DNA from: an uncultured Desulfobacter sp.
GTDB lineage: Bacteria; Desulfobacterota; Desulfobacteria; Desulfobacterales; Desulfobacteraceae
DNA length: 64,000 nt
NCBI RefSeq assembly: GCF_963665355.1
Contig: NZ_OY762229.1
Span: 1,364,001 to 1,428,000, forward strand
Reading direction: 5' to 3'
Part shown: piece by piece, positions 2,012-63,751 of the stretch
Layout: every line of letters begins with the position of its first letter
Numbering within the stretch: the first letter of the stretch is position 1
Program-made: the position numbers and the translations under genes
The notes under the pieces: model-generated
Database searches by the model: none
What the model saw: the letters and a program-made list of their open reading frames with translations, nothing else
What the model was told of the DNA's origin: nothing

Positions 2012-3057
2012 TCATGCAGCCGGTACTGGATTGTGCGTGGTTGCCATCTGTTTTAGGCAGTTCCAACGCCCTGCTTTATAAAATGATCGCAGCATAATCA
2101 TTTTTTCTGCATTCTCCCGATACCAAAAAGTGCATGGACCTTTAAGACGTAAATTCACAACTCTACGAATTGAACTTTCAATAGCACCGCTGCCAATCGG
2201 TAAATTCAACGATTTTACAGTTAAGAAATCAAGCCGCCCTTCATTGCGCACAAAACAATCACGTTCTGTCTTTATAGCCTTACTGTTCCTGCCTCGACAA
2301 AGTTTCTGAACGACCTGAACCACGTCAGCAGCTTTTCCTTTCAGCAGGAAACCCCGCTGTTTCGATACCCAGTGTTTGCGCTCCCTGGAAGACCAGGTCT
2401 TCTTTAAGCCTGACACCGTACCTAAATGCTCCACCGCATGGTAAAAATCAAGGAGTTCATATAACCCTTTAACAGGTGGAATAAGCCATCCGGGCCGCTG
2501 AAACTGCCATCAATAAATGGTGAGAAGCTTTTTTCTTGTTTGCCCTGGGCATCCACCACATAAATAATCAAGAGTTTGGGTTCTCGCCACGCCACACGAA
2601 ATCGGGTTCTATCCTTTTGGATTTTTGGGCCTCTTTTCGTCTCTCTTAGCCGTGTGCGTCCACCATCGGTGCTTATAACCACTCGCCGACCATCAAGTGT
2701 ATCTGTCTCATTTAGCGGGATTCGACCCGCTTGTTGCTCGGCACGGGCCCGTTCTGCATACCAATAGGTAAGTTTGCGGATAACCTTTATATCCAACACC
2801 ATACCATGATCACAAAGCACTTGACGGACTTCTTCAAAAGAACTCAATAGCGCTGACCAGGCACTCACCATAGAAGCCAAAGCTGGTGAGCAGCGATCAT
2901 AAATTCCAAGAAGGATTAAACCGGCGTATGCACCTTTATACCTTTTTCGATTTCGACGGTCACAGGATCTCCGATAATATAGTTTCGCAGTTGCTCGCAT
3001 ACGGATACTGCCGGGAGCATCAAAGTCGGCTCCAAACTGAGGCTCAAGCCCTGACCA
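2012..3057 (-). pseudogene. ISKra4-type transposase, frameshifted
   Basis: Two overlapping minus-strand frames together make one transposase. The first (from about 3057 down to 2422) carries LDGRRVVISTDGGRTRLRET and FRVAWREPKLLIIYVVDAQG. The second (2434 to 2012) carries SLNLPIGSGAIESSIRRVVN, then LRLKGPCTFWYRENAEKMIM and LRSFYKAGRWN, which is typical of the ISKra4 family. Near 2450 the frame changes: ELLDFYHAVEHLGTV reads on in the second frame, whereas the first frame ends in a short nonsense tail. Upstream of the first ATG (3000) the frame stays homologous-looking (FRFWSGLEPQFGADFDAPGS), so the true N-terminus lies further up. A programmed frameshift is possible, but I see no strong slippery sequence and treat it as decayed. 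Confidence 0.75.
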
Positions 3058-3231
3058 AAACCTGAAATGTATATGATAAAAACAGATCGTATATGATCAT
3101 GTGGCCAGATATAACCTGTTTCTATGGTGGTTTTCTTCTCCGGCCATGATCCATTGATGCAATTATTCTCTGATGATTTAACAGACTATGACGAAAAATA
3201 AAAATTTATTATGTTTGGTCCGAAACTTGAA
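3057..3231. repeat. ISKra4-flank dispersed repeat, copy 1
   Basis: This ~175-bp stretch, beginning CAAAACCTGAAATGTA and ending near AAACTTGAA, recurs at 23605-23781 with roughly 80% identity by eye. It overlaps the 5' coding end of the transposase. It is followed by a second copy of a 20-bp motif of the form ATGTTTGGYCCGAAAYTTGA (3211-3230 and 3239-3258). It is probably the end region of the insertion element; the second copy at 23.6 kb would then be a solo end. Confidence 0.7.
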
Positions 3232-15924: not shown

Positions 15925-16022
15925 AGCAGCGTTATGTAAGTGGTAAAATGGACTAAATAGTATTCGCCCTGAACAAACAAACGTCGATGAAGCTGATCGG
16001 CTCATTAATCAGGAGGTAAGTT

Positions 16023-17072
16023 ATGACTGAACAGAAGCCCCCCCCGGGGGGATCCAAACCGACTTCGAATGACGTGCTGAAAAAAATTCTACAACAGTTT
16101 AATAGATTTAAAGGTGGTCCTGTCTTAATTCTTGTTGCTGGTGTGATTGTGGTGGTCTTATGGACTGCATGGTTCACCGTCCAACCGGAGGAAACGGGGA
16201 TTGTACAGCGCTTCGGCAAGGTCATACGCACGGCCGGTCCGGGACTGCATTTCAAATTGCCTTATGGTATCGAAAAAGTCAGTTTGCTGCCCACGGCTCG
16301 CGTGCTAAAAGAAGAGTTCGGGTTTCGGACGGTTTCGGTTTCCACAGTTCCTGGTGAAAAGACCCGCTATGATACGAGCGGCACCTATAAGGACGAGTCG
16401 CTGATGCTCACCGGGGATTTGAACGTCATAGATGTTCAGTGGATCGTCCAGTACCGCATCGAAGACCCGATCCGATACCTGTTCCAGGTCCGCGACATTT
16501 TGAAAACAATCCGTGACACTAGCGAGGCGGTCATGCGCCGCGCGGTCGGCAACCGTCTGGGCAGCGATGTACTGACCACCGGACGGGTGGCAGTGGCCAG
16601 TGAAGCCAAAAACGAAATCCAGAAAATCCTGACAGCCTATAATTCCGGCGTGCGACTGGTTACCGTGGAACTTCAGGATGTAACTCCTCCGGATACGGTT
16701 AAACCTGCCTTTAATGAAGTCAACGAGTCGCGTCAGGACAAAGAGCAAACGATTAATAAAGCCCAGGAACAGGCCAACCGGGAAATCCCCAAAGCCCGAG
16801 GGGTGGCGACCCAAAGCATCAGTGAGGCCGAAGGTTACGCACTGGAACGTATAAACCGGGCCAAAGGTGAGGCCAATCGTTTTGAGGCCATTTTAGGACA
16901 ATACGAACAGGCGCCGCAGGTTACACGCCGGCGGCTGTATCTGGAGGCCATGACCGGTTTCCTGTCAGACATGAAAGGACTTTATATCGTGGATAAGGAC
17001 CAGAAGGCCATGGTGCCCTGGCTCCCATTGGAATCCAGTGGACAACCATCCGCACAAGGGGGAAAACCATGA
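16023..17072 (+). CDS. hflK: HflK, SPFH/band-7 membrane protein
   Basis: A 349-residue protein with a Pro/Gly-rich start, one membrane helix at about residues 33-53 (VLILVAGVIVVVLWTAWFTV) and an SPFH domain starting QPEETGIVQRFGKVIRTAGP. The C-terminal helical region (REIPKARGVATQSISEAEGY) is typical. HflK and HflC form a large membrane cage that regulates FtsH in known bacteria. AGGAGG before ATG 16023 is a strong ribosome site. The following hflC overlaps by four bases (ATGA), so the pair is made together. At 349 residues it is shorter than E. coli HflK, but no conserved part is obviously missing. Confidence 0.93.
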   Translation: MTEQKPPPGGSKPTSNDVLKKILQQFNRFKGGPVLILVAGVIVVVLWTAWFTVQPEETGIVQRFGKVIRTAGPGLHFKLPYGIEKVSLLPTARVLKEEFGFRTVSVSTVPGEKTRYDTSGTYKDESLMLTGDLNVIDVQWIVQYRIEDPIRYLFQVRDILKTIRDTSEAVMRRAVGNRLGSDVLTTGRVAVASEAKNEIQKILTAYNSGVRLVTVELQDVTPPDTVKPAFNEVNESRQDKEQTINKAQEQANREIPKARGVATQSISEAEGYALERINRAKGEANRFEAILGQYEQAPQVTRRRLYLEAMTGFLSDMKGLYIVDKDQKAMVPWLPLESSGQPSAQGGKP

Positions 17073-18043
17073 AGTTTACCTTGAAAGCAGTAACCCTCGC
17101 AATAGTGATGGCGATCGGTATAGTACTCTATGGCGGTCTATATACATTGGAAGAGGGTCTACAGGCCATTGTCGTGCAGTTTGGGCGGCCTGTTGGGGAA
17201 CCGGTGACCAAAGCCGGGCTGCACATGAAACTGCCATTTGTGCAGGAGGTCCGGCGATTCGAAAAGCGTCTGCTGGTCTGGGACGGAGACCCGAACCAGG
17301 TTCCCACCAAAGGGCGCGAGTTCATCTGGGTGGATACCACGGCCCGATGGCGGATTGCCGATGCAAAAAAATTTCTGGAGAATGTGGCCAGCGAAAATGG
17401 CGCCCAGTCGCGCTTGAACGATATTCTTGATTCGGTGGTACGAGACCAGGTGTCGAGCAGCGAACTTGTTGAACTCGTGCGCAGCGCATCGTGGGAAGTG
17501 CCCGAGGGCGAAGCTTTGAAAGAGATCCCAAAGGAGCGCGAAGAGGAACTTAAAAGGGAGATTGCCCGGGGCAGGGAGGAGATCACCCGAACAATACTGA
17601 CTGAAGCACAGAAGATCATCCCGCAATACGGTATTGAACTTGTGGATGTGCGCATCAAGCGCCTCGACTACGTTGAAAGCGTCCGTGAAAAGGTCTATGA
17701 GCGCATGATTTCCGAGCGCAAGCGCATTGCCGCGCAGTTCCGTTCCGAAGGCGAGGGACGCAGCGCCGAGATCCTCGGCACAATGGAAAAACAGCTGCGC
17801 CAGATCCGTTCAACCGCCTACCGCCAGGTGCAGGAGGTCCAAGGCAAAGCCGACGCTGAAGCGACGCAAATCTACGGTCAAGCATACAATAAAAATCCGG
17901 AATTCTATGCCTTTTTGCGCACCCTTGAAAGCTACAAGGAGAAAACGAATAAGAATTCCGTACTGATTCTCACCACGGACAGCGACTTTTATCAATATAT
18001 CAAGCAGGCGAGCCCCGGGGAAAAAAGTCGGGGAGGTCTATAA
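17069..18043 (+). CDS. hflC: HflC, SPFH/band-7 membrane protein
   Basis: A 324-residue partner of HflK. It has an N-terminal membrane anchor (AVTLAIVMAIGIVLYGGLYT), an SPFH domain (EEGLQAIVVQFGRPVGEPVT, GLHMKLPFVQEVRRFEKRLL) and a charged coiled-coil C-terminus with YGIELVDVRIKRLDYVESVR, the typical HflC signature. Its start overlaps the hflK stop, which implies coupled translation and a stoichiometric complex. A MITE-like element begins three bases after its stop codon. Confidence 0.94.
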   Translation: MKFTLKAVTLAIVMAIGIVLYGGLYTLEEGLQAIVVQFGRPVGEPVTKAGLHMKLPFVQEVRRFEKRLLVWDGDPNQVPTKGREFIWVDTTARWRIADAKKFLENVASENGAQSRLNDILDSVVRDQVSSSELVELVRSASWEVPEGEALKEIPKEREEELKREIARGREEITRTILTEAQKIIPQYGIELVDVRIKRLDYVESVREKVYERMISERKRIAAQFRSEGEGRSAEILGTMEKQLRQIRSTAYRQVQEVQGKADAEATQIYGQAYNKNPEFYAFLRTLESYKEKTNKNSVLILTTDSDFYQYIKQASPGEKSRGGL

Positions 18044-23331: not shown

Positions 23332-23926
23332 TGGAAACTCCTTTCGAGTTTTTCGTTAGAGCATTGGGAACTCAAATCGTAAAATGCCCACCCGTTCTCC
23401 GGATACACTCCGGCTTGGATGGCAGATTTTAGGTGTCAGGTGGGAAGTGTTATTCCGCTGTCCTTTGCTTTGTCCGATTATCTATTCAATTATCTACTCA
23501 AGTTACGTGCCAGGTTTTTGTCCATCGTATAAGCAGAACTCAACCTTATGTGCAGAATGGATAATCTTTCAGGTAATCCTTAAAAAAACGGCACTGACAG
23601 CCTTACAAAACCTGAAATGTAGATGACCGAAACAGATCATATATGGCTTTCTGGTCATATATGATTTGTTTTTATGATAGTTCTCTTCTCCGGCCATGAT
23701 CCATTGATGGAATTATTCTTTGATAATTTAGCATATTAAGACGAAAAATTAAAATTCGTTATGTTTGGCTCAAAACTTGAAAATATTGAATATAATATAG
23801 ACTTCCGAAAAAGCGAAAAGAGGTTTTGCAAATACGTCTATCAATGGCCGAGACTCTCTGGTTTGGAAATGGATGCTCACTAAGAATGAACGCTGAAAGT
23901 ACGAAGAGGCGCTAGGAAAGGTCTTT
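23332..23926. other. Intergenic region with hairpin and IS-end repeat
   Basis: Nearly 600 bp without a convincing gene; an 80-codon plus-strand frame at 23384-23626 has no ribosome site or recognisable content. It contains the second copy of the ISKra4-flank repeat (23605-23781) and, inside it, a perfect 10-bp inverted repeat ATCATATATG/CATATATGAT (23636-23645 and 23656-23665). The promoter of the lipoprotein gene at 23927 should lie in the last 140 bp. Confidence 0.5.
23605..23781. repeat. ISKra4-flank dispersed repeat, copy 2
   Basis: Matches 3057-3231 in the same orientation, including CAAAACCTGAAATGTA, the block TCTCCGGCCATGATCCATTG and the end AAACTTGAA. No transposase sequence accompanies it, so it is either a solo insertion-sequence end or a remnant of an excised copy. 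Confidence 0.7.
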
Positions 23927-48383: not shown

Positions 48384-49628
48384 ATGAAAGCATTGATTTT
48401 GACCAATGAGTATCCCCCCCATACTTACGGCGGGGCCGGCGTTCATGTTGCACACCTTCTCCGGGAAATGACAGCCCTGTCCCCGGACACAGATCATTTC
48501 GATGTCCTGTGTTTCGGTAACCAGAAAGATGCCGGGACAAATCTGCGGGTGTCTGGTGTGCCCGGGGAAAATTTTCAGGCATTAGAGCTGCAGCGGCCCA
48601 AACTGGGGGACACCCTGCTGCGCAATGCCGTTATGACCGGCATTGCAGATGCGGCTGACGTGATCCACTGCCATACCTGGTACACCTATATGGCCGGGTG
48701 TCTGCTCAAGGAGATTCTCCAGGCCGCCCTGGTTCTCACTACCCATTCCCTGGAACCCCACCGCCCCTGGAAAAGAGACCAGCTCGGTGACAGCTACCAT
48801 GCCACCTGCTGGCTGGAAAAAACCGCCATGGAAAATGCAGACGGTATTATTGCCGTGTCCGAGACAATGAAACAGAACGTCATAGACCTGTACCATATTC
48901 ACCCTGAAAAGATTCAAGTCATTTATAACGGGGTTGATACCCGATTTTTCAGTCCCATATCCCGGCCGGATATTCTCAGGTCCTACGGCATTGATCCGGA
49001 CAGGCCCTATCTCCTTTTTGTGGGCCGGATTACCCGGCAAAAGGGGATCATGCATCTGATCCGGGCCATTTCCATGGTGGACCCGGGCGTACAGACAGTG
49101 CTGTGTGCCAGCGCCCCTGATACTGAGGAAATTGCCCGGGAAATGCAAACCCGGGTGGAAACAGCCAGGCAGACAATAGGCCGGGACCTTCTCTGGCTTT
49201 CTGAAACAATTCCCTTGCAGGATCTGCCGGTCCTTTACAGCCATGCTGCTGTGTTTGTGTGCCCTTCGGTGTATGAGCCCTTTGGTATTATCAACCTTGA
49301 AGCCGGGGCATGCAGTACGCCGGTTGTGGCTGCGGCTGTCGGGGGGATTCCCGAGGTGGTGGTCCACGAAGAAACCGGGCTGCTGGTTCCCTTTGACGCA
49401 AAAGAAGATGCTGAGCCCGCAAAACCGGAAATATATGCTGCGGATCTGGCAGCTGCCATTAACACCCTGATTCGGGCGCCGGAAAAAGGCGCACAGATGG
49501 GTGCGGCAGCCCGCAAAAGAATTGAAAAACACTTTTCATGGACTCGTATTGCCCACCAGACCATGGAATTTTATCAGCACCTGATCAAAAACAGACGTCA
49601 GCCTGATCAAGCCCGGCACCGGCCGTAG
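48384..49628 (+). CDS. glgM: Glycogen synthase, GT4 (actinobacterial GlgA/GlgM) type
   Basis: A 414-residue GT4 glycosyltransferase. It opens MKALILTNEYPPHTYGGAGV then HVAHLLREM, the hallmark of the actinobacterial 'glycogen synthase' group whose mycobacterial member GlgM makes maltose-1-phosphate from ADP-glucose and glucose-1-phosphate. DVIHCHTWYTYMAGCLLKEI, QVIYNGVDTRFFSPI and the donor-site VFVCPSVYEPFGIINLEAGA complete the fold. Position beside glgE, treS-mak and glgB supports the GlgM role; the glgA symbol would be equally conventional. Its last ~16 codons lie in the 86-bp sequence repeated at 55.4 kb. That repeat shows that its 3' end originally overlapped the 3' end of malQ. Confidence 0.85.
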   Translation: MKALILTNEYPPHTYGGAGVHVAHLLREMTALSPDTDHFDVLCFGNQKDAGTNLRVSGVPGENFQALELQRPKLGDTLLRNAVMTGIADAADVIHCHTWYTYMAGCLLKEILQAALVLTTHSLEPHRPWKRDQLGDSYHATCWLEKTAMENADGIIAVSETMKQNVIDLYHIHPEKIQVIYNGVDTRFFSPISRPDILRSYGIDPDRPYLLFVGRITRQKGIMHLIRAISMVDPGVQTVLCASAPDTEEIAREMQTRVETARQTIGRDLLWLSETIPLQDLPVLYSHAAVFVCPSVYEPFGIINLEAGACSTPVVAAAVGGIPEVVVHEETGLLVPFDAKEDAEPAKPEIYAADLAAAINTLIRAPEKGAQMGAAARKRIEKHFSWTRIAHQTMEFYQHLIKNRRQPDQARHRP

Positions 49629-49667
49629 GCAGCCATGGTCTTTTTGAGCCACCCGGCATGCTGTTTT
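49582..49667. repeat. 86-bp direct repeat, left copy
   Basis: Matches 55412-55497 at 84 of 86 positions in the same orientation. It covers the 3' end of the GT4 synthase gene plus the final codons of malQ on the other strand. The malQ part is only a fragment here. Together with the right copy it frames a ~5.7-kb block. Confidence 0.92.
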
Positions 49668-49736
49668 TAGGATTTTTGCGACCAGTTGAGGAACTCCTTC
49701 CATGATTTCAATAATCTTGCGTACCTCTTCCCAAGA
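49668..49736 (-). pseudogene. Possible integron/Xer-type tyrosine recombinase shard
   Basis: Immediately inside the left 86-bp repeat, the minus strand reads SWEEVRKIIEIMEGVPQLVA then KIL in one open frame. This resembles the segment 'EEVxxLIxxMxGxPQLMAxLLYGxGLR' of integron-type integrases, just before their first catalytic arginine. It is only 23 codons, so the assignment is tentative. If right, the block's edge cuts through a recombinase gene, which would bear on how the block arrived. Confidence 0.4.
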
Positions 49737-50167
49737 TTAAAGTATCCCCACATCCATAGCGGTGGCCTTCAGGGATTCTGCCGCCTTTTGAAATCCGTCA
49801 ATCTCCTCTCTATTAAGATGAGGTACAGGGGATTTTTCCACACCTCTGCGTCCGATAATTACAGGAAGACTTAATGTCAAACCATTAACACCTGCATACC
49901 CCTGAACTTTCGTTGAAACATTAAGGATGCTCTTTTCATCCCGTAAGATAGCCGTCAGTATTCTGAGCACAGTTTGTGCAATTCCAATGAGGTGACGAAA
50001 CCTGCTTGTATCCAGTAATGTACCGGACCCTATTATCTGCCTTGGCTCAAGGCTTGAATGTCTATAAATTTATCAACGAGTACAAGCTGTTCTGCAATTC
50101 CTGAAACAGCAATTGAATATGCGATTGTGGCTCCAACTGATCCCAGGCCGACAATACCGATTTTCAT
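49737..50167 (-). pseudogene. L-lactate/malate dehydrogenase with large internal deletion
   Basis: From ATG 50167 (with GGAGG before it) the minus strand reads MKIGIVGLGSVGATIAYSIA and VSGIAEQLVLVDKF, the NAD-binding GxGxxG start of lactate dehydrogenase, and stops after ~45 codons. Past a frame change it resumes with IIGSGTLLDTSRFRHLIGIA (LDH substrate-loop region). It finally reads ILNVSTKVQGYAGVNGLTLS, LPVIIGRRGVEKSPVPHLNR to the natural C-terminus. About half of a normal ~310-residue protein, including the catalytic HGD motif, is missing. The gene is dead. Confidence 0.85.
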
Positions 50168-50187
50168 GATATTCCTCCCATCTTCCT

Positions 50188-50371
50188 TTATTTTGATTGT
50201 GTGACTTTTATATCTTTTCGAATTTCCTTCTCCGCCTGCTTCCAGTCCTCATTTTTGCGACCTGTGCGGACCATAGGCACCACTTTGACAAAAGGCCCCA
50301 CCTTGCCCCAGAGTGTCTGCCGTGGGAGAGGGGGGCCTGTTCTATGGTGATCATTTACAAAAGATCGCCGT
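50188..50371 (-). other. Open frame of unknown identity upstream of the LDH remnant
   Basis: Between the LDH remnant and csbD the minus strand has an open frame without a start codon, reading GKVGPFVKVVPMVRTGRKNE then DWKQAEKEIRKDIKVTQSK and a stop at 50188. The composition looks protein-like (a basic, amphipathic end), but I cannot name a family. It may be another truncated gene end. Confidence 0.3.
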
Positions 50372-50551
50372 CTACTTGTCTAAAACATTCTTGATCTGGC
50401 TGCGCTTTTCCTGCACTTTCCCTTTAATATTTTCGATGTTACCGTTGGCTTTCAGGTAGGGGTTTCCCACCAACTTCCCGACGAACTCCTTGATCTTACC
50501 TTTCACCTGGTGCATCTTGCCTGTTGCGTTATCCTGTGTGCTTGACTTCAT
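50372..50551 (-). CDS. CsbD-family stress protein
   Basis: A 59-residue hydrophilic protein: MKSSTQDNATGKMHQVKGKI, KEFVGKLVGNPYLKANGNIE and NIKGKVQEKRSQIKNVLDK. The 'GK.hq.KGKiKe..GK..gn..l.a.Gn.e...GK.Q' pattern is the CsbD signature. Members are general-stress-induced in many bacteria and are of unknown biochemical role. The ATG is preceded by AGGAGA. It is one of the few intact genes in the inserted block. Confidence 0.9.
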   Translation of the reverse strand: MKSSTQDNATGKMHQVKGKIKEFVGKLVGNPYLKANGNIENIKGKVQEKRSQIKNVLDK

Positions 50552-50729
50552 GGTGTTTCTCCTGTTTGATTCCGAAAATTGAGTTTGTAATTAATTAGGT
50601 GACGACGGCTTGAACGGAAGATGCTGTACCCGTGCAGAACCTCGAGACCATCTCTATGAAGCCCTTGTCAATCAAGCTACCGACCTATATCCTCAAAGGC
50701 ATCTACCACCATTCCCGTTCCAATTGAAA
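50552..50729. other. Intergenic stretch
   Basis: No recognisable gene. A plus-strand frame (50610-50825) is open but matches nothing I know and overlaps the secreted-protein remnant on the other strand. The csbD promoter should lie just right of 50551. Confidence 0.4.
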
Positions 50730-50957
50730 TTAACAGTATATCCTGGGCCACGCGCACGAAGCAGTGTCTTGGCGGCGCAGGACCCAATCGCCCAAGGATG
50801 CTTGGTGGAAGATTATAGAAAATAACTTCTCTTGGTGGTTCTTACCCTTTTTACCGTCAGCCCAGTCCGGCTTTCCTGCGAGTGCCGTATTTGTTAAACA
50901 TATCCCGGCAAATATAAGCAATAGTATAAGGCTCATCTGAAAAACAGATCGCTGCAT
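50730..50957 (-). pseudogene. Small secreted protein, probably truncated
   Basis: ATG 50957, with AGGAG upstream, starts a clear signal peptide (MQRSVFQMSLILLLIFAGIC then LTNTALA) and a mature start GKPDWADGKKGKNHQEK. Secreted proteins beginning this way normally continue with a charged, Asp/Arg/His-rich region. Here the sequence instead changes to FSIIFHQASLGDWVLRRQDT and an unrelated end, so a rearrangement probably replaced the 3' part. A short secreted product could still be made. Confidence 0.5.
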
Positions 50958-51066
50958 GATCTTAACTCCTATTCAAAAGGTTATAGATGCGATCACAGGG
51001 TAAAAATTTAATCATCGGGTAAAAGGTTCTCCCTTGGGTCAAGGGATCTACCTATGGCAGATTTTT

Positions 51067-51710
51067 TTACCATTGAACTTTTAAAAAGGTCTGTCTATTT
51101 TTTATCGGATAAATTTCAACACGTCGATTCAATGCCCTGCCTTTATCTGTTTTATTGGATTCCACCGGGTTTGAGAACCCAACTCCCTCGCAGGACAGAC
51201 GATTTCCATCAATTCCCTTGTCAATAAGATAGTTTTTACAGCCTCAGCCCGTCTCAGTGATAGGACTTCATTATACGCTTTGGTACCGATGCTGTCCGTA
51301 TGCCTTGGATTTTAGCAAAAAGATCGGGACGAGATTTCAGAACATCGGCAACCTTGTCAAGATAATCAAAACCTGCCGGTTTGATGATAATTTAATTAAA
51401 ATCAAAATAAGCTTCATTCACCACCCAGACTTTTTCAACTACTGGAGTGACAACCGGTGCTTGAACTATGCCTTTGACTTTTTCGGTCAGAAACACATCC
51501 TTCACAAACTGTCCCATACCGCTGCCTGTCAGCAATTTATCCGCTTTGGTGACAAAGCCGCAGCTACCGATCCGGGCAATATCATCCACGGGAAAAACAT
51601 AATCGTCTGAATTAAATATGGTTGGGTTAAAATCGGAAATGGGCTGGACCGATTGGCTGGCAACACATCCGAATAGAAATAAAGCTGTAATGAGCGGTAA
51701 GGCACAACAT
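51067..51710 (-). pseudogene. OmpA-family lipoprotein, multiply frameshifted
   Basis: The minus strand retains the whole length of an OmpA-like lipoprotein, broken into frames. It starts with a signal and lipobox (ITALFLFGC), then VNEAYFDFN and a premature stop, which should begin the OmpA domain. Next come DYLDKVADVLKSRPDLFAKI, a shift inside the expected 'GHTDSIGTKAYNE' motif, LSLRRAEAVKT, another shift, and GIDGNRLSCEGVGFSNPVES then NKTDKGRALNRRVEI, the peptidoglycan-binding signature. The start codon is also lost. At least three lesions show it is dead. Confidence 0.82.
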
Positions 51711-51950
51711 CAGAATAAACTCGTCCAAAAGATCAATCAACATAGAACGGTATGTCAACAGGCCATGGCTCAATCCCCTTGATTCGGAAAATTTGACTTT
51801 CTATAACCCGCATGGCCTGTTTTGTCAGACTTACGCCTTTTTTATAACAGCCATGGGCTGACCCGGGTTTTCACCGTGGTTCAGCCCACAACGAAAGTTG
51901 AAAGATCTGTGCAGGTTACACAGACTTTCTTATAAAATCTTTGATTTGAG
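51711..51950. repeat. Gap containing dispersed repeat R1, copy c
   Basis: R1 copy c occupies 51841-51935: TATAACAGCCATGGGCTGAC at the left, CCCACAACGAAAGTTGAAAG in the middle and GGTTACACAGACTTTCTTAT at the right. It is the closest full-length relative of copy d at 53821. The remaining ~130 bp to its left shows nothing recognisable. Confidence 0.65.
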
Positions 51951-52268
51951 CTAATTTTTGACGATAAGGCTGTTCTTAACGGATTGGACACCCTTAACTG
52001 ATCTGGCGACTTCCACAGCTCTGGCAGAGGCAGCAACAGAATTCACAAAACCGCTTAACTGCACTTTTCCCTTGAAAGTTTCAACAGTGATCTGGAGCAC
52101 CTTGAGCATGGGGTCATCAAATATTTGTGCTTTCACCTTGGTGGTTATGACGGAATCATCAACAAATTCGCCCGTACTTTCCTTGTGATGTGTTCCGGCA
52201 CAACCGGCACCAAAGGTAAGCAGAAAAAATCCAAGAATAAAACAGTTGACAAAATTTTTTGCTTTCAT
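51951..52268 (-). CDS. Single-BON-domain lipoprotein
   Basis: A 105-residue protein with a lipoprotein signal (FILGFFLLTFGAGC, Cys23) and one BON domain at about residues 38-104: FVDDSVITTKVKAQIFDDPM, VETFKGKVQLSGFVNSVAAS and VKGVQSVKNSLIVKN. BON domains bind phospholipid or stabilise the outer membrane, as in OsmY and DolP. It is probably anchored in the outer membrane facing the periplasm and induced by osmotic stress by analogy. GGAG precedes the ATG. Confidence 0.88.
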   Translation of the reverse strand: MKAKNFVNCFILGFFLLTFGAGCAGTHHKESTGEFVDDSVITTKVKAQIFDDPMLKVLQITVETFKGKVQLSGFVNSVAASARAVEVARSVKGVQSVKNSLIVKN

Positions 52269-52367
52269 AATTTCTCCTTAGTATATTATCTTTTGGGTTC
52301 ATATTGGATTCCGGGGTCTTGATATGATAAGGGATGTGGTCCCCTTGCAATTGACAATGACCCGGAG

Positions 52368-52526
52368 CTAAATTTTACCCAGCACGACCAGAATCAAAAG
52401 TATCAGCACGATAAGCCCGAATCCTCCGCTGGGTCCATAACCCCATGATCGGCTATGCGGCCAGACAGGGATTACACCCAATAGCGCCAGTACCAGTATT
52501 ATGAGTAAAATTGTGCCTATTGACAT
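52368..52526 (-). CDS. DUF3309 small membrane protein
   Basis: A 52-residue protein, MSIGTILLIILVLALLGVIP then VWPHSRSWGYGPSGGFGLIV and LILLILVVLGKI: two helices joined by the conserved 'P.WP.SR.WGYGPSG' loop of DUF3309. AGGAGG precedes ATG 52526. The first codons and ribosome site are repeated as a shard at 21.1 kb. It sits between two BON-protein genes on the same strand. The function is unknown. Confidence 0.9.
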   Translation of the reverse strand: MSIGTILLIILVLALLGVIPVWPHSRSWGYGPSGGFGLIVLILLILVVLGKI

Positions 52527-52624
52527 GATGAATCCTCCTGTTTTTTAAATGGTTATAAATCCTCTGCCGCACAAAACATCCAACGGCGGATTGATCCACA
52601 GTCCGAGTAACTTTTGAATTCGAC

Positions 52625-53419
52625 TTACTCGACGGTTATATTGTTGTTAACATCCTTTACCCCGTTAACATCACTCGCATATTTGCCGGCCAGATCCTTT
52701 TCAGCGGACGTCTTGGCCATGCCTTCCAACGTGACCACACTATTTTTCGTCTCAACTTTGGTGTTGATGGCACTGGTCGAGCGATGATAGAGCAATGAGG
52801 TTTTTACCAAGGCAGTAATAGATGCATCATCAATGGATTCAACAACGCGATTCGTCTTGTCGACCACCTTTTTTTTGATACCTGATGTTTCATTACCGGC
52901 ATCTGGCACAGTCATTTCATTTTTTACATTTTCAACACCTTCCACATCCATGGCGTACTCGGTGGTAAGGTCCTTTTGAGCAAGACTTTCGGCTTTGCCG
53001 CGTAACGAGATGGTGCCATTGTCGGCGAGAACTTCAGTTCCGGTGCCGCTGACGTGCCTATGAAATAAAAGTGCGGTTTTTACTTTGGCAATGAGCCATG
53101 CATCTGATTTTTCAGCAGGGCTGTTTTTATCTTTTTCTTCCAATTTGTTGTCCACGCCCTTAACTCCGGGAAGGCCTGCAATGGTTTCCTCGGCCAATGA
53201 TTTATGGGATGGGTCCTGAACAGTCCCGGTCAAGGTGACAAGGCCGTTTTTTGACTTGATTTTAATGTTGTCGTCCTTGAGGTAGGTCTTGAATACATAG
53301 GTCTTTGGGGCCGAGGCTTCAATGCGGTCATCCGTATCAGATGCAAATAAGGGGATGGTGGTAAACAACATGGCGGCTACAGCGGCCAGAACGGCCAATC
53401 GGTACACTGGTTTTTTCAT
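52625..53419 (-). CDS. Periplasmic protein with three BON domains
   Basis: A 264-residue exported protein with signal peptide LAVLAAVAAMLFTTIPLFAS. BON domain 1 is about residues 40-95 (NIKIKSKNGLVTLTGTVQDP). BON 2 is about 105-170 (SDAWLIAKVKTALLFHRHVS, DNGTISLRGKAESLAQKDLT). BON 3 is about 200-264 (SITALVKTSLLYHRSTSAIN, NSVVTLEGMAKTSAEKDLAG). This is OsmY-like, with one extra repeat. It is likely a periplasmic osmotic-stress protein acting on the envelope. A second, 5'-truncated copy lacking BON 1 lies at 63.2 kb. The ATG has AGGAGAA upstream. Confidence 0.9.
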   Translation of the reverse strand: MKKPVYRLAVLAAVAAMLFTTIPLFASDTDDRIEASAPKTYVFKTYLKDDNIKIKSKNGLVTLTGTVQDPSHKSLAEETIAGLPGVKGVDNKLEEKDKNSPAEKSDAWLIAKVKTALLFHRHVSGTGTEVLADNGTISLRGKAESLAQKDLTTEYAMDVEGVENVKNEMTVPDAGNETSGIKKKVVDKTNRVVESIDDASITALVKTSLLYHRSTSAINTKVETKNSVVTLEGMAKTSAEKDLAGKYASDVNGVKDVNNNITVE

Positions 53420-53673
53420 GTTACTTTTCTCCTGTTCTTTAGGTTGATTTTAAATGGTGGAAAACGGAAATCCTTCTTCTGTTATTCGCTTTCCATTTTA
53501 ATCTATACTCAATTCTTGTGCCAGGTTGACACTCATCCTTGTTTTTCCATCCATAGAGTTGAATTTTAAGACTAATTTATGAAAACAACATGAACACGTA
53601 TCCCATGAGAAATCATGGAAAAAAGGTTGCCCTTAACCAATGGTCGTATGTGATCTTTTTTCAGGTCCCTTGC

Positions 53674-53776
53674 CAGGCGGATCATGTGCTGGTGAATATT
53701 TTCGGCAGACAGATGTTTTCCCAGATAACGCTGCAAATTGACTCTGGTCTGATTGTCGATTTCCTGACCCAGATTC
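53674..53776 (-). pseudogene. malQ internal shard
   Basis: The minus strand reads QEIDNQTRVNLQRYLGKHLS then AENIHQHMIRLA, matching EQEIDNQTRVNLQRYLGTHL then SAENIHHHMIRLA of the intact malQ (nucleotides 55632-55735) at about 90% identity. The frame then continues into unrelated residues. The left end abuts repeat R1d/e. It is one more short piece of a cluster gene inside the inserted block. Confidence 0.85.
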
Positions 53777-53920
53777 ATCCCACAACGGAAATTGTAAGAT
53801 TTATGTAGGTTCCATAAATTTTCTTATAACGGCCATGGGCCGACCTGGCATATCAACTGCCAGACTCAACCCACAACGAAGGTAGAAAGATCGGTGTCGG
53901 TTACACAGACTTTCATATAA
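53777..53920. repeat. Dispersed repeat R1, copy d with a half copy in tandem
   Basis: A full R1 unit runs 53821-53920: TATAACGGCCATGGGCCGAC, CCCACAACGAAGGTAGAAAG and GTTACACAGACTTTCATATA. It is preceded by the right half of another unit (53777-53829, CCCACAACGGAAATTGTAAG to TCTTATAA). The unit supplies the last ~18 codons and stop of the decayed AAA/Lon gene, showing that R1 arrived at, or caused, that gene's truncation. Confidence 0.7.
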
Positions 53921-55352
53921 AAAAAACTGATCTTGTCGCTATTTCTCATAATCTTTTTGCTTTGGACAATATCTTCTTTCAGATTAGCCGTATTCTCAGC
54001 GTCGTAGTATCTTTCCGTCTTGTATTTTATTCTCTTTTCAATCAAGTCTTCGCGCATCTTATTGTGGGTCTCATCCAGGAACAGAACCTCGGGCATGAGG
54101 TCGGCAAAATGGGTTACGGCAATAATATCCTTGTCACGCTGCCAGTAGACGATAAGAAATTCAGGCTCAAGATTCTGGTAGTTCTGCAGCGGCATGTACA
54201 TCCGCCTAAGATACAGCAGCACTTTTTCCGTTTTTTTCCGATGCCCGCCGATGATAACCGAACCGCCGATTTCGTCCTTTTTGACCCCTTTGGTCCAGGG
54301 TGCCCCGGTGATGCCAAAGTCAATGCAAAGGGGGATCTGAAGCAAGTCCGACATGGTGTTCAGGGCTAGGGCATACCCTGCGGACGGTCCCCCGACGTTG
54401 TAGGATGCGGATAACAGCTGGTGGTGGATGGAATACCGCTGGAAAAAATCCCCGAACAGCCATGGGATGCTGATATCCGGGCACAGGCACTGGATATAGT
54501 TTTTCACCATGGTCAGTGCCTCCTGGGCCGACTGATTGGTCATTTTTACGGCCATGTCCATCTGAGCGGTCTGGGCCGAAGGCGTGGCCACGGCCCCGGT
54601 TACAATGATCGGCGCATTTTCGACCCTGCCGGTCAGACTGGTGGCAATGGGCAACAGCATTCCGGTCGTCTCATTGGCTCCCACGCCAATAATAAAACCG
54701 ACCTGGGGTTCCTGGCTCAGCTCGGTTTGTAAAAATTCGTTCAGCTGGATGGCTCCTTTGCGCGTGGGACTTTGGGAAATTTCCCTTCTGGCGGATTCCA
54801 GGTGGGACACAACAATGGGATAATTCTGTTCCCGGGTAATATGATTCACACTTTCCAGGATCTTGTCGTAATGCTCCACAAAATTTTTCAGATCGTTTTT
54901 GATTTTGGATTTGATCAGGGGTTGGGCTGGGCATCAAGAATCCCCAGGACGGTTTTAAAATTAAGTTTGACAAAGTTATATTTTTCATCCCGGGTTGAGG
55001 ATTTGAGATCCCGAAGTTTGAGCAGAACTTTAAACTCGGTGCTGCAAAGGGCAATGGCCTTCTGGGTAAACGATGTGTAGTCTGCCGGGGTATTGCAGAT
55101 CCCATAGGCTGTTTCTATGATTTTTTCCACCTCAAATTTTCGTTGGTGAGAAACATGTTCAAACTGCTTTTTGATGATTTCAAAAATTTGTTGGTCAGGG
55201 CATCCGAGGGGTGGCCTCCGGTAGCGCTTCGTTTGGGGACAAGCGCATCTCCCTCGTCAAAAAAGATCTCCGTGGGGGCGATCATTTTTGCAATATCATA
55301 CACTTTTTCAAGGTTGGATACGGCGCCGTGTACAGGACTTGAAGGAATTCAA
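53866..55352 (-). pseudogene. AAA+/Lon-type protease, frameshifted and truncated at both ends
   Basis: Three minus-strand frames form one former protein. The first (55352 onward) has an AAA+ Walker B region (MIAPTEIFFDEGDALVPKRS). The second (to 54915) has a helical region (IIETAYGICNTPADYTSFTQ). The third (about 54920-53866) has a Lon/S16-like proteolytic domain: VGFIIGVGANETTGMLLPIA, the serine motif in ASYNVGGPSAGYALALNTMS and a lysine in GGSVIIGGHRKKTEKVLLYL. The last shift is a C-run near 54927. Walker A is missing upstream, and the C-terminus is overwritten by repeat R1d (VCVTDTDLSTFVVG). The proteolytic domain alone might still be translated, but the gene is probably dead. Confidence 0.75.
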
Positions 55353-55411
55353 GAGTGTAAAAAATTATACATGAAGATTTATTAATGGTCAAAAAATATT
55401 ACCGACACCCA
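55353..55411. other. Right edge of the inserted block
   Basis: AT-rich sequence without coding potential, joining the decayed protease gene to the right 86-bp repeat. The bases just before the repeat (ACCGACACCCATGATC) resemble those before the left copy (TCAGCACCTGATC), so homology may extend slightly beyond the 86 bp. Confidence 0.4.
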
Positions 55412-55497
55412 TGATCAAAAACAGACGTCAGCCTGATCAAGCCCGGCACCGACCGTAGGCAGCCGTGGTCTTTTTGAGCCACCCGGCATGCTGTTTT
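55412..55497. repeat. 86-bp direct repeat, right copy
   Basis: The partner of 49582-49667, with two mismatches. It contains the true 3' end of malQ and, on the plus strand, a fragment of the GT4 synthase 3' end. It implies that the synthase and malQ were once adjacent and convergent, with their ends overlapping by about 22 bp. Confidence 0.92.
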
Positions 55498-56942
55498 GTC
55501 AAGCTGCCCTTTGCCAGCCGCCACTGCCAGTTGTTCTTTGCGCCGGCCGGCTGGTTCAGGCGGGCATCCGCCCCCAGACCGAGAATGTCCTGGAGCGGGA
55601 TGATCACTGTATCCGCCACAGACATCATTGCCAGGCGGATCATGTGGTGGTGAATATTTTCTGCGGACAGATGCGTTCCCAGATAACGCTGCAAATTCAC
55701 CCTGGTCTGATTGTCGATTTCCTGTTCAAACCAGCCGCGGATCGTGTTGTTGTCATGGGTGCCAGTATAAACGATACAGTCTGGGACATGGTGATGGGGC
55801 AGAAAGGAACTGTCTGGAAAATCGTCCCCAAAGGCGAACTGCAGCACCCGCATGCCGGGTAATTGAAATTTGCGCATACATTCCCGAACATCAGGTGTGA
55901 TCGTGCCCAGGTCTTCGGCGATGACCGGCAGCCGTCCAAATCGCATGGTCAACCTGGTGAAAAAATCATCCCCTGGTGCCTGTACCCACTCCCCGTCCAC
56001 AGCGGTCTGTGCCGAAGCCGCAACCTCCCAGTATGCAACCAGGCCCCTGAAATGATCGATGCGCACCACATCAAACATCTCAAAATTGTGTGCAAACCGC
56101 TTCAGCCACCAGTTGTAGCCATTTTGCTGCAAAAATTGCCAATCGTACACCGGGTGGCCCCACAGCTGTCCTGTGGTGCTGAAGTAATCCGGGGGCACAC
56201 CTGACACCATTGTCGGTGATCTGTTTTCATCCAGTTTATACTGTTGTGGACAGCTCCAGACATCTGCGCTGTCAAAGGGCAGATAGATGGGAATATCTCC
56301 GTAAAGGCGGATGCTGCGGGTATTGCAGTAGTCTTTGAGTGCCTGCCACTGAAGGAAGAACACAAACTGCACAAACTTATGCTGCCGGATCTGTTTTGCC
56401 AGTTTGCCTTGCATCTCAGCCAGGGCATCCGGGTGCCGGTCCCGTAAAGGCTGGGGCCATTGACTCCAGCTTTGCATGTGAAAATGCTCTTTGATGGCCA
56501 TATAGGCTGCAAAATCATCCAGCCAGGCCTTTTGCCGGGTACAGAAATGCGCAAACCCGCCAGGGGATTTTCCCTGCTGTTCCAGGCGTTCACACGCCAG
56601 CGAAAGAAGGGTGCGCCTATGTTCGGCAACTGCCGGATAATCAACACGGTCATCTGAAAATGGCTGCTGGAAAATGGTTTCATCTTTGGACAGCAGACCG
56701 GTTCGGATGAGAAAATACGGGCTTATGAGTAAAGGGTTGCCGGCAAAGGCAGACGAGCAGCTGTAGGGAGAGCCGCCACTTTGTCTGTCAACCGGATTCA
56801 GCGGCAGCATTTGCCAAACATGCTGGCCTGAGGCAGATAAAAAATCGGCAAACCCGTAGGCAGAGGGTCCCAGATCGCCAATGCCATATCCGCCGGGAAG
56901 ACAGCTTATGTGCATCAGAATGCCGCTTGTGCGGATGGTCAT
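55437..56942 (-). CDS. malQ: 4-alpha-glucanotransferase (amylomaltase)
   Basis: A 501-residue GH77 enzyme that disproportionates maltodextrins. It opens TSGILMHISCLPGGYGIGDL then GPSAYGFADFLSASGQ. The catalytic blocks are YGDIPIYLPFDSADVWSCPQ, the nucleophile in DVVRIDHFRGLVAYWEVAAS, the acid in RLPVIAEDLGTITPDVRECM, and CIVYTGTHDNNTIRGWFEQE. MSVADTVIIPLQDILGLGAD near the end is normal for MalQ. Length fits the family. Its ATG overlaps the stop of the mscS-type gene by four bases (ATGA), an odd partnership that ties osmotic release to glucan metabolism. Its last codons lie in the right 86-bp repeat. Confidence 0.96.
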   Translation of the reverse strand: MTIRTSGILMHISCLPGGYGIGDLGPSAYGFADFLSASGQHVWQMLPLNPVDRQSGGSPYSCSSAFAGNPLLISPYFLIRTGLLSKDETIFQQPFSDDRVDYPAVAEHRRTLLSLACERLEQQGKSPGGFAHFCTRQKAWLDDFAAYMAIKEHFHMQSWSQWPQPLRDRHPDALAEMQGKLAKQIRQHKFVQFVFFLQWQALKDYCNTRSIRLYGDIPIYLPFDSADVWSCPQQYKLDENRSPTMVSGVPPDYFSTTGQLWGHPVYDWQFLQQNGYNWWLKRFAHNFEMFDVVRIDHFRGLVAYWEVAASAQTAVDGEWVQAPGDDFFTRLTMRFGRLPVIAEDLGTITPDVRECMRKFQLPGMRVLQFAFGDDFPDSSFLPHHHVPDCIVYTGTHDNNTIRGWFEQEIDNQTRVNLQRYLGTHLSAENIHHHMIRLAMMSVADTVIIPLQDILGLGADARLNQPAGAKNNWQWRLAKGSLTKQHAGWLKKTTAAYGRCRA

Positions 56943-63228: not shown

Positions 63229-63751
63229 GAGTGAATAGTCAAAAGATGACCAACCTGCTGAAAAATCAGACGCATGGCTCATTACCAAAGTAAAAACCAC
63301 ACTTTTATTTCATAGGAACGTCAGCACTACGGCAACTGAGGTTTTCGCAAAAGATGGCACCATCACCTTGCGCGGTGAAGCAGACAATAACGCCCAGAAA
63401 GATTTGACGACCGAATATGCCTTGGATGTGGAAGGCGTTAAAAATGTAAATAATGAAATGACCGTTTCAGAGGCCGGTGAGGCAACATCAAGTGCCCAAA
63501 AGATCGCCGCCAAGACGAATGTGGTGGTTGAATTGATTGACGATACGTCTATTACTGCCCTGGTAAAAACCTCATTGCTTTATCATCGCTCAACCAGTGC
63601 CATCAACACCGAAGTTGAGACAAAAAATGGTGTGGTCACGCTGAAAGGCATAGCCAAGACGTCCGCTGAAAAGGATCTGGCCGGCAGATATGCAAGTGAT
63701 GTTAACGGCGTAAATAAGGTTAACAACATCATCATCGTCATCGTCGAGTAA
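63229..63751 (+). pseudogene. 5'-truncated copy of the three-BON protein gene
   Basis: The frame reads PAEKSDAWLITKVKTTLLFH, KDGTITLRGEADNNAQKDLT, SITALVKTSLLYHRSTSAIN and SAEKDLAGRYASDVNGVNKV, about 80% identical to BON domains 2 and 3 of the protein at 52625-53419. The signal peptide, BON 1 and the start codon are missing: a stop codon lies at about 63226 just upstream of the homology. A TTG inside BON 2 (63368) could start an unexported fragment. It is probably non-functional. Confidence 0.82.

Follow-up and report, generated by a model that had tools for sequence, protein, structure and literature searches.

We studied a 64,000-nucleotide stretch of an uncultured Desulfobacter sp. genome (contig NZ_OY762229.1, positions 1,364,001 to 1,428,000; hereafter the window, C2:1364001-1428000 of genome G000, which counts 5.64 Mb in three contigs), in which the convergent genes glgM and malQ are separated by a block that is framed by two copies of an 86-bp direct repeat. 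With a probability that we put at about 0.52, the glgM-malQ junction is an integrase-free insertion site, where homology-anchored integration added DNA repeatedly and deletion followed. The 86-bp repeat is the remainder of a longer and older duplication. The junction occurs threefold and in longer form in the nearest relative, and the window holds a relic of the third copy, by which the puzzle of an 86-bp target duplication dissolves. An earlier, sequence-only reading of the window, according to which a 5.7-kb block had entered as a unit and had thereby made the 86-bp duplication, is partly supported.

The repeat itself is confirmed and real. Alignment of the left copy (J1, 49582-49667) with the right copy (J3, 55412-55497) gives identity at 84 of 86 positions, as had been claimed, and identity drops beyond both edges; within the window, gapped BLAST extends the match to 103 columns at 92% (E 2e-36), the 15 bp or so that this adds on the left being less similar. 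Searched at E 0.001, the own genome yielded no third place. Each copy contains the 3' ends of both genes, tail to tail. The forward-strand open reading frame (ORF) of glgM (48384-49628; open, GT4 glycogen synthase family, TIGR02149 subfamily according to NCBIfam) stops at repeat position 47 inside the left copy, which holds the last malQ codons on the opposite strand, and the open malQ ORF (55437-56942, minus strand; 4-alpha-glucanotransferase according to NCBIfam) stops at 55437, repeat position 26, inside the right copy. The spacer between the copies (49668-55411, 5744 bases) has a G+C content of 44.8%, versus 52.6% in the 10 kb to its left and 51.6% in the malQ-mscS region. No inverted repeat pair of at least 16 nt was found at the block edges, and no Rfam family reached its gathering score in the window.

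A sample of 86 genomes of the family was searched with the malQ end, which matched in 13, and with the glgM end, which matched in 15. Both gene-end regions lie on one contig in nine genomes (G000, G018, G093, G094, G096, G097, G099, G100 and G102), which amount to fewer than nine independent cases, since G093 and G094 are close (inserts alike at 1595 of 1606 positions), as are G097 and G100 (97% at the malQ end), and G000 and G018 have common ancestry. The junction is interrupted in eight of the nine. It is uninterrupted in G096, where glgM and malQ are adjacent with one junction copy, glgM stops earlier and an 8-bp gap remains; this bears out the earlier claim that only one copy existed originally. 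Junction copies are found on both sides of the insert in four of the nine (G000, G018, G097 and G100), and the length of the framing repeat differs among relatives, being 334, 86, 51 or 50 bp, or none. G102 is fragmented and shows glgM-end relics on two contigs. The same flanking genes enclose different inserts in G000, in G018 and in the sister-genus set, hence the block and its decay are not common to all relatives. In the genus itself, close malQ relatives were found in two of 19 genomes (G000 and G018), with one at 54% in G002 (E 1e-60; several of the 19 are incomplete), and a scan of genome contigs gave just two distant malQ loci; with malQ in so few of these genomes, the flanking genes are not core here.

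In the sister genus, G099 carries 12 kb between glgM and malQ. The seven ORFs scanned there correspond to BON, CNNM/CorC, DUF2254, DUF4112, a cation-chloride cotransporter, a Na+/H+ exchanger and a sodium:sulfate symporter, and its BON proteins show only distant likeness to those of the window block. G097 and G100 have shorter inserts that, judged by translations, hold partly the same genes as G099; they are framed by junction copies that agree at 43 of 50 and 47 of 51 positions, respectively, and the ends of glgM and malQ are complete (the G100 contig holds only the last 32 glgM codons). G093 and G094 contain a BrkB-type insert (the match to BrkB comes from G094 alone) and no duplication. The GlgM tails have been replaced in G093, G094 and G099. 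The idea that an ORF overlap of 22 bp in all relatives made a duplication necessary for keeping both genes does not hold generally, given these replaced tails and the 8-bp gap of G096.

The nearest relative is G018 (malQ 94%). Its junction is present threefold, in direct orientation, with two different inserts between the copies. The left copy comprises glgM and about 190 bp of malQ, the middle copy a 106-bp glgM piece and about 230 bp of repeat and malQ, and the right copy 147 bp of the glgM end and the complete malQ. Over 334 bp the left copy agrees with the right one at 91.6%; the shared stretches measure 106 and 237 bp for the left and middle copies, and 237 bp for the middle and right copies. 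Between the left and middle copies lie a Tle1-like fragment, a GT2 gene and an MdoG gene (opgGH-like); between the middle and right copies lie genes for an antitoxin and a YoeB-like toxin, two transposase genes and a gene for a protein with a DAC match below the Pfam cut-off. In the window, a 97-bp internal malQ fragment (J2, 53670-53766, minus strand, 93% to 55628-55724) starts three bases after a 234-bp segment (53433-53666) that is 85% identical to the segment directly preceding the G018 middle copy (L011:5145-5378). The middle copy was thus ancestral to both genomes and has been largely deleted in the window genome. The 334-bp outer copies, the third copy and the different cargo of G018 leave the entry of a 5.7-kb block as a unit unsupported, as do the mosaic cargo and the separate history of the right edge described below.

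Pairwise differences give an indication of age. On the glgM side, the left copies of G000 and G018 differ at 3 of 147 positions and the left and right copies within G018 at 8 of 147. On the malQ side, there are 26 differences in 273 positions between left and right within G018, 15 in 273 between the right copies of the two species, and 16 in 273 between the G018 left and the G000 right copy, the last of which permits roughly equal age. From these counts we read the junction duplication as probably no younger than the split of G000 and G018.

Two further observations concern G018. Its glycogen/trehalose cluster is decaying, with 8.5 kb gone upstream of glgB, internal deletions in glgM and mscS, and malQ open (L011, L012). 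The gene pair at window 16003-18033 is at least partly duplicated there (L012:7031-9061 and L011:19287-20000), about 32 kb apart and 95% alike.

The right edge of the block is of foreign origin. Here lies part of a large gene for an AAA/Lon-type protease (53943-55346, minus strand), 95% identical to an open gene in G003 and 89% to the own native copy. The tree places it with G003 (UFBoot 100) and away from the native gene of the own genome at C2:2.037 Mb, which rules out a duplication of that gene as its source. The fragment is followed by segment X with an 11-bp spacer (55342-55411), X being natively situated beyond the Lon-type gene, and then by J3. In G003, the native Lon-type locus continues via X and the 11-bp spacer into the same repeat and 25 bp of malQ (181 bp, 93.9%); this draft genome, which is 95% complete, has no malQ at E 1e-60. 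Homology to G003 stops 11 bp short of the repeat in the native loci of G000, G018, G017 and G002, and those of G018 and G017 continue alike beyond that stop. Judged by these alignments, the Lon-X-repeat joint most likely has a single origin and came to G000 from G003-like DNA. There is a switch of identity at the joint: X matches G003 at 58 of 59 positions, and the right repeat matches G003 at 78 of 86 but the left copy at 84 of 86, which, in these small numbers, is as expected from a crossover at the start of the repeat. The G003 gene (L048:6160-9483) encodes an AAA plus Lon-type protein of 1107 amino acids, which stays below the cut-off of all 12 NCBIfam models listed; related DNA occurs in many genomes of the genus.

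As a whole the block is a mosaic, made up of pieces of genes, several of which have been trimmed by deletion. Pfam matches are to the lactate dehydrogenase (LDH) C-terminal domain, CsbD, BON, DUF3309, three BON domains in one protein, and Lon_C; all genes mentioned here lie on the minus strand. The LDH remnant consists of three pieces (49735-50189), 96.5-98% identical to an open LDH frame in G003, relative to which it has lost two internal stretches, of about 0.23 and 0.27 kb, by deletion. A small protein gene remnant (50662-50985) consists of two pieces, 90% and 84% identical to an open frame in G076, from another genus, with about 0.24 kb deleted between them. The OmpA/VWA protein gene remnant (51095-51704) has an internal deletion of about 0.47 kb with respect to the open homologue in G019 (402 amino acids). 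Together with the adjoining open BON-domain gene (51951-52268) it is 73-86% identical to a contiguous pair in G019 and 69-82% to pairs in G015 and G004. Between these two lies the 156-bp 3' end of an ISAzo13-type transposase gene (51692-51847; 96-97% to two other places in the own genome), which is the sole transposase trace in the block and is situated in its middle, not at its edges. A CsbD-like gene (50372-50551; Pfam, with a top DNA match of 77% in G062), a DUF3309 gene (52368-52526; domain match) and a gene with three BON domains (52625-53419; 82% to a G018 gene downstream of malQ and 83% to window 63254-63739) are open, as is the BON gene, so the block is not decay throughout. The nearest relatives of the cargo pieces are spread over several genomes.

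The gene calls of the sequence-only reading thus stand for LDH, CsbD, BON and DUF3309, by Pfam. OmpA is identified solely via the open G019 homologue, as Pfam gave no match for two short ORFs of the remnant, and what had been called Lon is the 3' part of a large AAA/Lon_C protein gene. The 97-bp malQ fragment, the transposase 3' end and the dispersed repeat copies had gone without mention.

These dispersed copies, detected by repeat search, belong to a repeat of about 100 bp and are found at 51838-51937 and, adjoining each other within 53775-53922, at 53775-53831 and 53820-53922; the repeat occurs partly in tandem pairs. In the own genome it has at least 45 matches (of 147 candidate regions, 40 were scored), and it also matches in many genomes of the genus. 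Its 20-copy consensus carries the motif TTTCATATAA at both ends and predicted hairpins, and has no Rfam match. A segment of about 175 bp is present three times in direct orientation at window 3056-3231, 23606-23781 and 66154-66327 (past the window end, L017), with copies 77-82% alike.

No integrase or recombinase was recognised among the ORFs scanned in the window block, in the G018 inserts (eight ORFs) and in the G099 insert (seven ORFs), which were selected stop-free ORFs and not all six frames, the inserts of G097, G100 and G102 lying outside the scan. Against 72,556 records of plasmids and 50,697 of phages, region 49400-55800 gave no match (E 1e-5), and a plasmid or phage source of the block is accordingly unsupported.

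In the explanation that we favour, integration anchored by homology would leave a junction copy on each side of the new DNA, and the extent of the shared homology would set the length of the copy, unlike in a target-site duplication. Integration would have occurred more than once, leading to an ancestor of G000 and G018 with three junction copies. Continuity with the upstream DNA would have been kept by the leftmost glgM and the rightmost malQ alone, and selection would have acted on these outer genes only. The inner copies and the cargo would have been free to decay, mostly via deletion, while further foreign pieces may have overlaid or replaced them. The 86-bp frame would be the surviving overlap of left and right copies. 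We infer both this order of events and that homology of incoming DNA, rather than a prior tandem duplication, made the copies. The variable length of the duplication and its threefold presence point to homologous recombination followed by erosion, not to a transposase or integrase, and a homologous stretch common to the site and G003-type DNA does exist, namely the Lon-X segment joined to the repeat and 25 bp of malQ. A ComEC homologue is present. Ku gave no match in any of 19 genomes of the genus, 14 of which combine a completeness of 90% or more with a contamination of no more than 5%, and Ku-type end joining is not favoured as origin of the joints.

Several points weigh against this explanation. 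In three of the nine genomes (G093, G094 and G099) the insert comes without a junction duplication. An incoming molecule with both the junction and this cargo was not found in our searches; the X-repeat joint of G003 sits at a chromosomal locus, and the LDH gene of that genome is 28 kb distant, beyond the joint. Gene conversion could give the same identity switch at the start of the right repeat. The junction-copy tree is poorly resolved, with supports of 16-70 within the genus on sequences too short to decide. At the left joint, nothing informative in the 86 genomes matches the region between the repeat end and 49734, other genomes giving matches of 19-30 bp only over 49664-49740. Where near parents exist, the deletion joints show little exact microhomology, about 1-5 bp by a raw count that was read by eye from the alignments, the computed anchor overlap over-counting at gaps and mismatches. 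Finally, ComEC is also found in 10 of 14 control genomes, so its presence does not establish competence.

Tandem duplication followed by filling is a serious rival, listed already in the sequence-only reading and still alive, even if we hold it to be rather doubtful. Here a junction stretch no shorter than 334 bp, and perhaps of some 740 bp between glgM 49242 and malQ 55724, would have been duplicated and triplicated in place and filled later; inner copies would have lacked gene starts from birth, and insertion sequences and gene fragments would have arrived afterwards by any route. The three direct copies of G018, whose retained parts extend into both glgM and malQ, agree with this, as do outer copies that contain the glgM 3' end and the complete malQ, and the transposase remnant of the window block together with the two G018 transposase genes indicates insertion sequence activity between copies. 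However, a bare tandem junction array is absent among the matches in the 86 genomes, the occurrence of the Lon-X-repeat joint in G003 gives that edge a history outside a simple local array, and duplication and filling would be separate steps for each genus.

That a mobile element or integrative island ended in the 86-bp copies, as att-like sites or as a very long target duplication, is highly improbable, and we reject it. Direct repeats do frame the block, both gene ends are intact, as they are where islands insert at the 3' ends of genes, and the same site has been used repeatedly in two genera. Nevertheless, the repeat varies in length from 334 bp to none, the cargo is not the same in G000, in G018 and in the sister genus, much of it being eroded, the only transposase piece of the window block is mid-block, and the scanned ORFs held no recombinase; the variable length and the lack of inverted repeats of at least 16 nt at the edges likewise uphold the earlier rejection of an ordinary transposon target duplication. 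Assembly error or chance similarity is the least credible of all, for, typical as repeats and mosaic joints are of misassemblies, the window lies within a 5.54-Mb contig, the X-repeat joint recurs in an independent genome (G003) and the middle-copy neighbourhood in another (G018), and the E-value of the repeat is 2e-36.

The finding is thereby largely explained, and what mild interest it retains lies in the series of states that relatives show at one site. A long direct duplication can mimic a giant target-site duplication once only the overlap of eroded copies remains. Genomes with one, two and three junction copies, and with framed and unframed inserts, form a natural series that offers material for the study of integrase-free insertion at a fixed site. 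It is a speculative and on balance improbable extension of homology-anchored integration that the site works as a ratchet, in which each integration would add a copy of the glgM-malQ ends and the relics would become landing pads for the next DNA, making a self-multiplying, recombinase-free docking site in at least two genera. If relics do act as landing pads, this would explain intergenic spots that draw foreign DNA without a recombinase.

Various known systems resemble the junction in part. Islands integrated at gene 3' ends have direct repeats at both edges and restore the gene ends. The block is like these in its direct repeats on both edges and its intact gene ends, and unlike them in that no recombinase was recognised among the scanned ORFs and the repeat length is not fixed. 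It differs from a transposon with target-site duplication by the same lack of a fixed length, by the absence of inverted repeats of at least 16 nt at its edges and by a transposase that is a mid-block remnant only. A single crossing-over of circularised linear DNA duplicates the homology. For incoming bacterial DNA, one-end homology-anchored integration and single-crossover integration of circularised DNA are among the routes described in PMC3240628. The same article treats homology-facilitated illegitimate recombination, by which foreign DNA is gained with one homologous anchor, as proposed here for the junction, and with a short microhomology of 3-10 bp at the illegitimate joint; this is studied as single laboratory events, unlike the junction, which would be the outcome of an old multi-step history. 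Our literature search found no paper on insertion between convergent overlapping genes with duplication of the overlap. Insertion spots without mobility genes and with recombining flanks are common according to Oliveira et al. 2017 (PMC5635113). Like the integrase-free hotspots of that account, the glgM-malQ junction has the same flanking pair with contents that vary per genome and no recognised mobility gene at the edge; unlike them, its flanks are not core in the genus, its boundary is duplicated with relics and its content is largely broken.

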